DNA of 64,000 nucleotides from Ignavibacteriales bacterium (GTDB taxonomy: Bacteria; Bacteroidota; Ignavibacteria; UBA10030; SZUA-254): positions 124,001 to 188,000 of the forward strand of contig JACRMQ010000007.1 in NCBI GenBank assembly GCA_016214905.1, written 5' to 3'. Position 1 is the first letter of the stretch. Each line of letters starts with the position of its first letter. The notes under the pieces are model-generated. The model saw only the letters and a program-made list of their open reading frames with translations, was not told the DNA's origin and made no database searches. The position numbers and the translations under genes were made by a program. This document shows positions 30,785 through 34,600 of this stretch, piece after piece.

Positions 30785-31189
30785 TTATTGGAAATGAGAT
30801 TGACCTATTTTATTTAGTATAAATATAACATCATCCCGCAGATGACAATATGAAGGTTTTGACGAAACCTGTGATTCGCCCGGATAAAAAAACAAAATAG
30901 CCGCTATCTGGTTTTGCTCTTTCGACACATTATCTATAAGTGCTCTGTTTAATCTTAATGTTTCACGAACGATGCGCTTGATTCTGTTTCGATCTATGGC
31001 TCTTTTTATATTTCGAGAAACTTTAATGCCAAATGATGAATTTATTTTTTGATTATTTTCATTCAGTAAGAGAACAAAAGATCGAATAATATTTCCATTT
31101 ATCTTTTTACCGTTCCTGAAAATTAAATCAAAATTCTTTTTACCCCGAATGATTTTATCTCGTGGAAGTTTGTATCCCACAAATATCAC
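30785..31189 (-). CDS. rnpA: ribonuclease P protein component
   Basis: 134 residues from the GTG at 31189; an internal GTG four codons later is also possible. The conserved basic helix reads 'GIKVSRNIKRAIDRNRIKRIVRETLR' (in part), the RNR signature of RnpA. The N-terminal 'LPRDKIIRGKKNFDLIFRNG' matches too. It assists the catalytic RNase P RNA in maturing tRNA 5' ends. It begins five bases after the rpmH stop, so the two are co-transcribed. The rnpB RNA itself is not seen in this window. Confidence 0.95.
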   Translation of the reverse strand: MIFVGYKLPRDKIIRGKKNFDLIFRNGKKINGNIIRSFVLLLNENNQKINSSFGIKVSRNIKRAIDRNRIKRIVRETLRLNRALIDNVSKEQNQIAAILFFYPGESQVSSKPSYCHLRDDVIFILNKIGQSHFQ

Positions 31190-31194
31190 TTTAA

Positions 31195-31341
31195 TTAAGC
31201 TTCATCGCTAACGGTAAGTTTTTTTCTGCCAACCGATCTCCTGCGCTTCAATACTTTTTGACCATTCTTGGATTTCATTCTTTCGCGGAAACCATGTTTA
31301 TTTTTTCGTTTCCTGTTGCTTGGTTGAAATGTTCTTTTCAT
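31195..31341 (-). CDS. rpmH: 50S ribosomal protein L34
   Basis: 48 residues, from the ATG at 31341 to the TAA at 31195. The sequence begins [20 protein letters not shown] and continues with the '[22 protein letters not shown]' type block (in part) that defines L34. It is slightly longer than the 44-46 residues usual in the family because of a short acidic tail (TVSDEA). It is the first gene of the rpmH-rnpA-yidD-yidC unit next to the origin. A terminator-like hairpin lies 33-61 bases upstream on the same strand. Confidence 0.97.
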
Positions 31342-31370
31342 GTTATCCTCATTAAATAAACGATTTGCCA

Positions 31371-31402
31371 ATGAAAAAAAGAGGATTGTTGTAACAATCC
31401 TC
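31371..31402 (-). terminator. terminator-like hairpin in the rpmH leader
   Basis: GAGGATTGTT and AACAATCCTC (31381-31402) are perfect ten-base arms with a two-base loop. On the minus strand the stem is followed by seven T. No minus-strand gene lies upstream, as dnaA is on the other strand. The hairpin is 33 bases before the rpmH ATG. It may attenuate rpmH-rnpA or end a short transcript coming out of the origin. Confidence 0.65.
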
Positions 31403-31726
31403 TAAATTTCAAAGATAAAGTTATAAAATTTTCTATTAAATATATCAAAATTGTGTGATTATTACAAACTTATATTACGATTAAAAATATAGACTTGACT
31501 CGCTAATCTATTATATGTATTTTCTTAAGGGGATTAAAAACAAATTAATTGTTAATAAAATGTTGATAAATTTCATTGTTATTGAAAAGCTCGATAATTT
31601 ATCTCATATTTGAATATTTATTGAATCTTTTTTGAACTTTTGTCAATATTTATGTTAATATCATGTTGATAAGACATCCATGACAATCAAATTATAAAAC
31701 GATTTTATTCATTAACGAGGCAATTA
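31403..31726. other. origin region, left arm (rpmH-dnaA spacer)
   Basis: AT-rich 324-base spacer at the point where gene direction flips. DnaA-box variants on the plus strand read TGTTAATAA (31550-31558), TGTTGATAA (31561-31569) and TGTTGATAA (31664-31672); on the other strand these are TTATTAACA and TTATCAACA, close to the TTATCCACA consensus. A fourth, TGTTAATAT, is at 31653-31661. The dnaA Shine-Dalgarno GAGG is at the right end. Confidence 0.75.
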
Positions 31727-33142
31727 ATGCAAAATGCGAATCCAGCTATAAACATATGGGTTCAGGCGCTCTCACTTATTAAAAGTAGGGTGAACACCCA
31801 AACTTATAAGTCTTGGTTTGAACCGATAGTACCGGTTGATTTAGACACAAATAAAATTACTCTTCAGGTACCAAGCCAGTTTTTCGTTGATTGGTTAGAA
31901 GAGCATTATTATTCTCTGATAAATGAGGTTTTGACACAGATTTCCAACCGGGAATTATTTGTTATCTATGCGATTGTACCAGAAGATCCGGATCTGAATA
32001 GACCTCAAGCCGAGGTTATCAATGATACAACTCATGTAAACAATTTATTACATAATCTTAGTAAAAGTCCATCAACATCAGCGCAATCATCTGTCAAACA
32101 ATTTGTCAATCCATCCTTAAATACGCGATATACTTTCGACAAATATATTAAAGGTGAGAGTAATCAATTTGCACGTGCGGCTGCGTTAGCCGTTGCGAAT
32201 AATCCGGGCGGCACATCTTTTAACCCGTTAGTAATTTATGGTGGTGTCGGGCTCGGAAAAACACATCTTGTGCAAGCAATTGGAAATCATGTTTTGCTTT
32301 CTGGGAAAAGCTCAAAGGTTTTATACGTTTCTAGCGAAAAATTTACCGTTGATTTTGTTGAAGCTATTCAAAAAGATAATATATCATCATTTTCAAATTA
32401 TTATCGGAATATTGATTTGCTTATCGTCGATGATATTCAATTCTTTGCAGGAAAAGAAAAAACTCAGGACATTTTTTTTCACACATTTAACGCTCTTCAT
32501 CAACTTGGAAAACAGATTGTATTATCATCGGACAGACCTCCAAAAGATCTTCAGGGTCTTAATGATCGGCTTACTTCCAGGTTTCAATGGGGTTTAACCG
32601 CTGATATTCAATCGCCTGATTTAGAAACGCGTATTGCCATTTTGCAAAAGAAAAGTTCCGATACTGGTGTAGAGTTATCGCAAGATGTTGTGGAATTTAT
32701 TGCAAACAATATTACTTCAAATATCCGTGAGCTTGAAGGTTGTCTTATAAGTTTGCTTGCCCGTGCGTCTTTAGAAAATTGTGCTATAAACCTCGATTTA
32801 GCGTACAATGTTGTCCGTACTTTGGTTGGAGAAGTTCGATCTCACATCACGATAGAAGAAATTCAACGTGTGGTTGCAAATCATTTCGGCATTCCCGATG
32901 ATTTGCTTCGCGCTAAAACACGGAAACAAGAAGTTGTTAATGCGCGACAGATAGCAATGTATTTAGCGAAAGAATTAACAAATTCCTCTTTAAAAACTAT
33001 AGGTTTGCATTTTGGCGGAAGAGATCACAGCACTGTTATTCATGCATATCAAACTGTTGAAGACAGTACTCATTTGGACAATAAACAAAAATCGGTAGTT
33101 CAGCATTTACGAAATACAATTGAACATGGGATTCGTAGATAA
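31727..33142 (+). CDS. dnaA: chromosomal replication initiator DnaA
   Basis: 471 residues. Domain I (about 1-90, with 'TYKSWFEPIVPV') binds helicase and partners; a Ser/Asn-rich linker follows to about residue 125. The AAA+ domain begins at 'NTRYTFDKYIKGESNQFA', with Walker A 'GGVGLGKTHL' and Walker B 'LLIVDDIQFFAGKE'. The C-terminal DNA-binding domain carries the signature 'GGRDHSTVIHAYQ'. GAGG lies nine bases before the ATG. DnaA-box variants flank the gene on both sides, so it may be autoregulated. Confidence 0.99.
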   Translation: MQNANPAINIWVQALSLIKSRVNTQTYKSWFEPIVPVDLDTNKITLQVPSQFFVDWLEEHYYSLINEVLTQISNRELFVIYAIVPEDPDLNRPQAEVINDTTHVNNLLHNLSKSPSTSAQSSVKQFVNPSLNTRYTFDKYIKGESNQFARAAALAVANNPGGTSFNPLVIYGGVGLGKTHLVQAIGNHVLLSGKSSKVLYVSSEKFTVDFVEAIQKDNISSFSNYYRNIDLLIVDDIQFFAGKEKTQDIFFHTFNALHQLGKQIVLSSDRPPKDLQGLNDRLTSRFQWGLTADIQSPDLETRIAILQKKSSDTGVELSQDVVEFIANNITSNIRELEGCLISLLARASLENCAINLDLAYNVVRTLVGEVRSHITIEEIQRVVANHFGIPDDLLRAKTRKQEVVNARQIAMYLAKELTNSSLKTIGLHFGGRDHSTVIHAYQTVEDSTHLDNKQKSVVQHLRNTIEHGIRR

Positions 33143-33484
33143 GTATGTTAATAAGATATTCTTTTTTATTGAATTATCTTTTTTCTATGTTAATAACTAT
33201 AAATGTTTTTTTACTTTTCTAATTTTATTTATAAGAATTATCTTTTCATCAATCAGAACACAAATTACCAACAATCATCTTTAATTCTAATCAATTTATT
33301 TTTCATATTTTTCTGGTTATAAACATATCCACAGTATTATTATTATATATCTTTTTATTTTTCCTTATAACTTATTATAATAAAATAGAGTTATGGAGAA
33401 ATTAATCTTTGATATTCGCTATAATTTTTGTACATTTAAACATGTTATTTTCGATTCACTTCATAATCCTTTAAGGAATTTATT
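33143..33484. other. origin region, right arm (dnaA-dnaN spacer)
   Basis: 342 very AT-rich bases without a gene, a plausible DNA-unwinding element. DnaA-box-like words are TGTTAATAA at 33146-33154 and 33188-33196, and TTATAAACA (33317-33325) overlapping by one base ATATCCACA (33325-33333), one mismatch from the consensus. A TAAGGA Shine-Dalgarno for dnaN lies at the right end. Confidence 0.65.
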
Positions 33485-34600
33485 ATGAAATTTTCTTGCT
33501 CAAGCACAGATCTTCAACGTGTTCTCGGTAATATTGGTGGTGTTATTCCATCTAAATCAACTCTCCCAATCCTTGAAAATTTTTTATTTCAACTTTCAAA
33601 AAACCGACTGAGTATAACCGCTACAGATCTTGATATATCTATGACGGTTACATTAAATGTTGATGCTAAAGAGGATGGTGAAATTGCAATTCCAGCGAAA
33701 CGTCTTTTTGAGACAGTGCGTGCACTTCCGAATATTGAAATAAATTTTCAAGTAAATACAGACACAAATAAAATTATAATGAAAACTCCGAGCGGTGAAT
33801 ATAAACTAACCGGCGAATCAAGTGAAAATTTTCCAAGCATACCTGCATTTCGTGGAAAAGAAGAAATTGAAGTTGAAAGTGATTCTTTCAGACGAATAAT
33901 TACGAAGACAGTTTTTGCCGTAAGTTCAGACGAACTAAGACCCGCAATGACCGGTATTTTATTGCAGATTAGAAAAAGTGAAATCAGAGTGGCTGCAACG
34001 GACGGGCACAGATTAGTTCGTTTAATAAACTCGAATTTTTCGAACGCAGATTTTGAAAGAGAAATAATTGTACCGGTGAAAGCCTTAAACCTTGCATCGA
34101 AATCAGCGAATAGTCAGAAGAGTACAATTTCATTAAACGAAAATCATATAATGTTTTCATTCGGAGATACAGTGTTGGTATCAAGATTAATCGAAGAAAA
34201 ATATCCGAGCTACGAAAGCGTTATTCCACTTGAAAACGACAAGCTTCTTGTTGTAGATAAAAATCAACTTTTGTCATCAATCAGGAGAATTTCTCTCTAC
34301 GCAAGTTCCACAACGCATCAAATTCGTCTTTCTTTAAAACGTAATAACGTTTCAATATCGGCTGAAGATATTGATGTTGGAAGTGAGGCTATCGAATCAT
34401 TAACATGTGATTATGGCTCCGACTCAATGGAAATTGGATTTAATTCAGGTTATTTAATCGATATTTTATCACACATTGACACTGACGAAGCGATATTTAA
34501 AATGAGTTCACCAACCAGGGCTAGCATTATTCAACCGTTTACGCAAAAAGATGGAGAAAATCTTCTCATGCTTGTCATGCCAGTTCGGCTGAATGCATGA
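33485..34600 (+). CDS. dnaN: DNA polymerase III sliding clamp, beta subunit
   Basis: 371 residues, the normal length for three clamp domains. Recognisable blocks are 'TLPILENFLFQLSKNRLSITATDLDI' (in part), 'RPAMTGILLQI', 'VAATDGHRLVRL' and the C-terminal 'MLVMPVRL'. The homodimer encircles DNA and tethers polymerase III. AAGGA lies before the ATG. RecF starts 13 bases after the stop. Confidence 0.98.
   Translation: MKFSCSSTDLQRVLGNIGGVIPSKSTLPILENFLFQLSKNRLSITATDLDISMTVTLNVDAKEDGEIAIPAKRLFETVRALPNIEINFQVNTDTNKIIMKTPSGEYKLTGESSENFPSIPAFRGKEEIEVESDSFRRIITKTVFAVSSDELRPAMTGILLQIRKSEIRVAATDGHRLVRLINSNFSNADFEREIIVPVKALNLASKSANSQKSTISLNENHIMFSFGDTVLVSRLIEEKYPSYESVIPLENDKLLVVDKNQLLSSIRRISLYASSTTHQIRLSLKRNNVSISAEDIDVGSEAIESLTCDYGSDSMEIGFNSGYLIDILSHIDTDEAIFKMSSPTRASIIQPFTQKDGENLLMLVMPVRLNA

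Follow-up and report, generated by a model that had tools for sequence, protein, structure and literature searches.

A probable bipartite replication origin with non-canonical DnaA boxes around dnaA in an Ignavibacteriales bacterium

The region around dnaA described here is very probably a chromosomal origin of replication (oriC) of the bipartite Bacillus/Helicobacter type, in which repeated TGTTRATAA words would serve as DnaA boxes and the unwinding site would lie after dnaA. It is contained in a window (the whole stretch of DNA analysed, 64,000 nucleotides) that covers positions 124,001-188,000 of a 1.38-Mb contig (C7), in a genome of 3.3 Mb and 10 contigs. The first-pass annotation had already proposed that the origin is bipartite and that these words are its DnaA boxes. 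The box pairs and modules of relatives speak strongly for that proposal, but it had missed the probable unwinding module at 33325. At the level of sequence, boxes occur on both sides of dnaA and the presumed unwinding region on one side, which is the arrangement that marks a bipartite origin. The origin is of a known kind and is a new example in a little-studied lineage; the result is a map, base by base, of a probable oriC in a lineage known mostly from metagenomes.

Gene layout

The genes are arranged as rnpA(-), rpmH(-), spacer, dnaA(+), spacer, dnaN(+), recF-like gene(+) and dciA(+), and the strand switch reported earlier is thus borne out. The recF-like label is based on an SMC_N match and on gene position.

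30785..31189, - strand: rnpA
about 31195-31341, - strand: rpmH, between rnpA and the upstream spacer
31342..31726, + strand: oriC1, the spacer between rpmH and dnaA; it contains two double DnaA boxes as well as the presumed dnaA promoter
31727..33142, + strand: dnaA, 471 aa, domains DnaA_N, Bac_DnaA and Bac_DnaA_C
33143..33484, + strand: oriC2, the dnaA-dnaN spacer
33485..34600, + strand: dnaN (sliding clamp)

Scans of the window for tRNA genes and Rfam families gave no matches. Other genes we take, from their translations, to be gyrB, gyrA, yidC, trmE, gidA and gidB. DnaA of the window shares 90% identity with its counterpart in 'Chlorobiaceae bacterium SW.3.66' (L001), 62-70% with those of L002-L011 and 59% with those of L012-L013; L002-L013 are MAGs named Ignavibacteria, Ignavibacteriae, Bacteroidetes or Bacteroidota.

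Probable double DnaA boxes upstream of dnaA

The five exact TGTTRATAA words reported on both sides of dnaA are confirmed, three before the gene (31550, 31561 and 31664, in the rpmH-dnaA spacer) and two after it (33146 and 33188, in the dnaA-dnaN spacer), all on the + strand. The upstream spacer contains the following features.

31495..31523, + strand: presumed dnaA promoter, TTGACT (31495-31500), 17 bp, TATTTT (31518-31523), consensus read by eye
31550..31569, + strand: double DnaA box 1, TGTTAATAA-aa-TGTTGATAA, 11 bp start to start
31653..31672, + strand: double DnaA box 2, TGTTAATAT-ca-TGTTGATAA, starts at 31653 and 31664, 2-bp gap

E. coli DnaA is reported to prefer box pairs that are 2 or 3 bp apart (PMC11317965), and both 31550/31561 and 31653/31664 are same-strand pairs with such a gap. 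In the other genome of the genus examined, double DnaA box 2 is present with one gap base different. As a DnaA box (TTATNCACA) we counted any site with at most two mismatches to TTATCCACA. There is one mismatch at 31561, 31664 and 33325 and there are two at 31550, 33146, 33188 and 33317. The earlier statement that only one box is near the consensus was therefore imprecise, since TGTTGATAA (31561, 31664) equals TTATCAACA and is one mismatch from TTATCCACA, as is ATATCCACA (33325).

The spacers of relatives were compared in 60 genomes including our own, 56 of which had a dnaA match and four no DnaA match. After L090, L173 and L175 had been dropped (truncated or short), 53 of the 56 upstream spacers were usable. 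A pair was defined as two same-strand boxes, each of which differs from either TGTGGATAA or TGTTGATAA at no more than two positions. Pairs at 11 bp, i.e. with the 2-bp gap of E. coli double boxes, were found upstream of dnaA in 47 of the 53 spacers of the order (50 shuffles: mean 1.04, maximum 4), and six had no pair as defined. When the total mismatch was limited to two, 40/53 spacers still had an 11-bp pair and 50 shuffles gave 0. The 12-bp spacing (3-bp gap) came second with 34/53, and the remaining spacings from 9 to 15 bp occurred in 2 to 9 spacers. With the canonical box alone as yardstick (at most two mismatches each), 11-bp pairs were seen in 21/29 and 12-bp pairs in 11/29 spacers; in 200 shuffles of this test no spacing from 9 to 30 exceeded 2 spacers. 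The likeness to the E. coli double box (PMC11317965) is one of sequence, and unlike there both members are non-consensus in this genome.

Orientation was fixed as well. Among the 30 best loci, 29 of which have an upstream spacer, upstream TGTTRATAA was forward 45 times and reverse 0 times, and TTATNCACA sites in the 29 upstream spacers ran in the same direction in 35 cases vs 2. The 40 good pairs had TGTTGATAA as first box 15 times and TGTGGATAA twice, and as second box TGTGGATAA 17 times and TGTTGATAA seven times; L093, L099 and L101 have exactly TGTTGATAA-nn-TGTGGATAA. The word of the window and the canonical DnaA box thus replace each other at one place. The pair pattern also holds in spacers with more than 40% GC.

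Double DnaA box 1 is the sole zero-mismatch TGTKRATAANNTGTKRATAA place in this genome. In the 60 whole genomes, 9/9 zero-mismatch places lie within 700 bp of dnaA, as do 34/56 places with up to one mismatch; the reversed-pattern control gave 7 places altogether.

The upstream double boxes could be an autoregulatory operator of dnaA only, with the dnaA-dnaN module alone forming a unipartite origin. Double box 1 begins 27 bp past the presumed -10, and in many relatives a TATAAT-like -10 precedes the box pair (by eye). In Melioribacter roseus, which belongs to the wider group, the authors put oriC between dnaA and dnaN only (PMC3534657); figure S1 of that paper gives a predicted box consensus. 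On the other hand, the second pair (31653-31672) is away from the promoter, further boxes follow the dnaA stop, and the upstream clusters of B. subtilis and H. pylori belong to a bipartite origin (PMC8235120). Operator and origin roles are also compatible with each other. We regard an operator without an origin role as possible but rather unlikely, and prefer a bipartite origin in which pair 1, because it is located just downstream of the presumed promoter, probably also represses dnaA.

Probable unwinding module downstream of dnaA

The features of the downstream spacer are as follows, the first two being assigned by sequence match.

33146..33154, + strand: putative DnaA box TGTTAATAA, directly after the dnaA stop
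33188..33196, + strand: putative DnaA box TGTTAATAA
33317..33333, + strand: tandem boxes TTATAAACA (33317-33325) and ATATCCACA (33325-33333), 1-bp overlap
33334..33345, + strand: GTA 3-bp spacer, then TTATTATTA, i.e. three DnaA-trios (3'-AAT-5', other strand)
33335..33394, + strand: presumed region of duplex unwinding, the 60 bp with the lowest GC in the spacer (10%)

The elements TTATAAACA-TATCCACA, 3 bp, TTATTATTA and an AT-rich stretch thus form a module at 33317-33394. In the basal origin unwinding system (BUS), a box guides DnaA onto trios and the duplex opens; it was predicted in 1755 of 2070 origins (PMC8287927). As in the BUS, the window has at 33325-33345 a box with at most two mismatches, a spacer of no more than 16 bp and at least three 3'-NAN-5' trios, and the boxes are in tandem. 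The commonest BUS trio is 3'-GAT-5', whereas those of the window are 3'-AAT-5', and unlike the BUS the tandem boxes of the window overlap by 1 bp and the spacer is just GTA (PMC8287927).

Fifty-two of the 56 downstream spacers were usable (L089, L172, L174 and L176 were dropped, truncated or short). A loose module, defined after the spacers had been viewed as tandem boxes, a 0-7-bp spacer and TTATTA-like trios, was found in 35/52 (60 shuffles: mean 0.78, maximum 3), and 17/52 had no module as defined. With at most three box mismatches it was found in 33/52 (shuffles: mean 0.05, maximum 2). Under a strict rule of three perfect trios, 12/52 spacers scored at least one and 40 shuffles gave 0. In a number of relatives the module spacer is CCCC or GCCC. 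The comparison of spacers in relatives, which had been proposed as a check, thus came out in favour of an origin on both sides of dnaA.

The pattern ACATATYMACAN{1,7}TTAT occurs once in the 3.3-Mb genome, at window position 33323, and its reversed control 0 times. Over the 60 genomes the pattern has 36 distinct places; 19 of them adjoin dnaA, and the remaining 17 are comparable in number to all places of the reversed-pattern control, 11. In the same-genus comparison there are 3 differences in the 78 bp that start at 33317, vs 73% identity over the whole spacer, and TGTTGATAA stands at the place of the 33146 box. The orientation of TGTTRATAA downstream of dnaA is mixed in relatives (13 forward, 6 reverse, 30 loci). 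Among 20 members of the class outside the order, a dnaN behind dnaA was found in 4 and the module (stricter regex) in 1, and the module is therefore not claimed for the class.

The oriC layout of two KSB1 loci (L014, L016) is similar, and the boxes before their dnaA are canonical TTATCCACA. Judged from these boxes, the layout may predate the box drift.

Word counts and chance controls

The first-pass annotation had taken the number of words in short spacers as support for an origin. This holds for the given word and fails for a freely chosen one. In dinucleotide shuffles of both spacers TGTTRATAA had a mean of 0.10, and five copies were reached in 0/5000, and the whole window has 8 copies vs 2.33 expected. 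When any 9-mer with one degenerate base could be chosen, however, at least five copies were reached in 55/300 shuffles, and this control led us to reject the word count as a stand-alone proof. What makes the count convincing is solely the likeness of the word to a DnaA box and its recurrence in relatives.

A similar density in other AT-rich spacers had been named as evidence against the origin. ORF-free stretches elsewhere (those lacking any ORF of at least 60 aa; 401 kb of the genome sampled) had 3 words in 49,694 bp, and no equally AT-rich control existed. Such a control hardly exists because no other 300-bp window sampled was as AT-rich as the spacers: all five 300-bp windows with at most 25% GC in the 401-kb sample were inside the two dnaA-flanking spacers. 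Given the chance controls and the lack of an AT-rich comparison, the decision rests on the relatives.

TGTTRATAA might have arisen by chance or from base composition in very AT-rich spacers, or might be bound by a different regulator. The free-choice control agrees with this, as does the lack of genome-wide enrichment of the word (169 matches vs 185 for the reversed word). The fixed upstream orientation, the 11/12-bp register, the canonical box swapped in across the order and the persistence of the pattern above 40% GC all argue against it, and we give this explanation hardly any weight.

GC skew

Cumulative skew was computed over 0-300 kb of the contig with two small gaps. A minimum away from dnaA had been set as a point against the origin, and the lowest cumulative G-C count is indeed near 215 kb of C7 (-1900; L136), some 58 kb rightward of dnaA, while dnaA itself has a local minimum (-1693 at 156 kb). 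Pooled third-position skew was -0.047/-0.036 left of dnaA and -0.003/+0.030 right of it; stretch means were -0.020 on the left (7 stretches) and +0.034 on the right (18), the two window blocks at dnaA being excluded. The sign change is roughly 100-200 kb from dnaA in one relative (G024) and near dnaA, though blurred, in another (G017); in a third (G001) nothing clear was seen in the three stretches checked for skew. Two clear GC-skew transitions are described for Melioribacter roseus as the likely origin and terminus (PMC3534657). The skew in our genome is weak and displaced and therefore neither fixes nor excludes dnaA as the origin; we rejected it as an origin locator.

The true origin could instead be near the skew low point, with the boxes at dnaA being regulatory. 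The displaced minimum and the displaced sign change in G024 would fit. The skew basin is shallow and broad, however, and the unwinding-module pattern and the exact pair each occur once in the genome, both at dnaA. We therefore consider an origin elsewhere improbable.

Proposed mechanism and known systems

From the words, their pairing, register and orientation, the module, its conservation and its rarity in the genome, all of which were read from the sequence, we infer DnaA binding, opening of the duplex, a loop that joins the two parts, and autoregulation, as follows. DnaA would load head to tail on 31550-31569 and 31653-31672, where the boxes are one helical turn apart. DnaA on 33317-33333 would spread as a filament onto the trio strand and open 33335-33394, and oriC1 and oriC2 would meet via DnaA with dnaA looped out. 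The box at 33325, in its tandem-box/DnaA-trio module, is likely the functional heart of the origin.

In B. subtilis and H. pylori, two box clusters are split by dnaA and bridged by DnaA, and 2 bp is given as the optimal box distance for a DnaA filament (PMC8235120). Like these origins, that of the window has two clusters flanking dnaA, an unwinding region after dnaA, and a GC-rich or short spacer with DnaA-trios after the box. The H. pylori box is TYATTCACN, whereas here it is TTAT(C/T)AACA with one ATATCCACA; B. subtilis oriC has 13 + 7 boxes, and the candidate boxes recognised in our sequence are fewer (PMC8235120).

Literature searches directed at this lineage or this word turned up no study of the lineage's DnaA boxes. 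A literature search for TGTTGATAA with DnaA gave no match, and one for TTATCAACA with DnaA gave two papers. TTATCAACA is given as an oriC DnaA box in the linear-chromosome origin of Cyanothece 51142 (PMC4674748). The box word is the same, being the reverse complement of TGTTGATAA; Cyanothece, of a different phylum, has two imperfect boxes 10 nt apart (PMC4674748).

The data suggest that the double box and the box/trio module known from E. coli, Bacillus and Helicobacter extend across much of a Bacteroidota order despite box drift. For origin finding, same-strand box pairs at 11-12 bp could be searched for rather than single TTATCCACA matches.

The box and the DnaA protein

As a sequence, TGTTRATAA is a degenerate TGTGGATAA (TTATCCACA on the other strand) with the canonical base 6 changed from C to A. 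C at this DnaA box position is absent and A is present in all five words; relatives have C or A there in the same tandem places. Base 6 of the canonical box falls in the half that the recognition helix reads (PMC5742627). The suggestion that the preferred box is lineage-specific therefore stands in a weak sense only, as canonical TGTGGATAA occupies the same tandem positions in relatives.

Of the DnaA residues compared in the order, R399 is found in 54/55, D433 in 55/55 and H434 in 55/55 proteins, and DnaA of the window keeps all three. S435 is present in 53/55 in the order and 58/60 in other Bacteroidota. Two positions differ: Q401 in 54/55 vs R401 in 60/60 other Bacteroidota loci, and N419 in 51/55 vs K419 in 59/60. 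A co-varying change of DnaA specificity was nevertheless rejected, since residues 401 and 419 do not track box type in the 20 members of the class from beyond the order, and both KSB1 loci, whose boxes are canonical, have K401 and K419.

Eleven of these 20 class members also have pairs spaced 11 or 12 bp with no more than two mismatches. In other families of the class, L194, L198, L201 and L208 have TGTTAATAA or TGTTGATAA upstream of dnaA, mostly with the same orientation; one reverse word is present as well in each of L194 and L201. Judged by such matches, the non-canonical box also occurs beyond the order. The words can be read most simply as a degenerate TGTKRATAA family whose non-canonical members would be tolerated through cooperativity and AT-rich drift.

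Base 4 of the word was T in 28/40 first boxes vs 14/40 second boxes. With one vote per genus (24 genera), T-G prevailed over G-T by 10 to 2 (P = 0.04) and 12 voted otherwise, a count that removes relatedness only in part. The first-box preference for T is suggestive only, and the double box of the window has T in both members. One may speculate that the double box of the order is asymmetric by design, with promoter-proximal TTATCAACA and distal TTATCCACA forming a graded sensor that would depend on ATP-DnaA and link the repression of dnaA to the firing of the origin; we think this doubtful.

A double box outside the dnaA region

One more double DnaA box was recognised by sequence away from dnaA. 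TCTGGATAA-at-TGTGGATAA is found at G000:C3:58031-58050 (L177:1501-1520), between rtcB and the ORF of a PAS/GAF sensor histidine kinase, which starts about 165 bp further on. The pair may mark a promoter under DnaA control or a site like datA or DARS, and it is identical in the other genome of the genus (G001:C61:7597-7616, L178).
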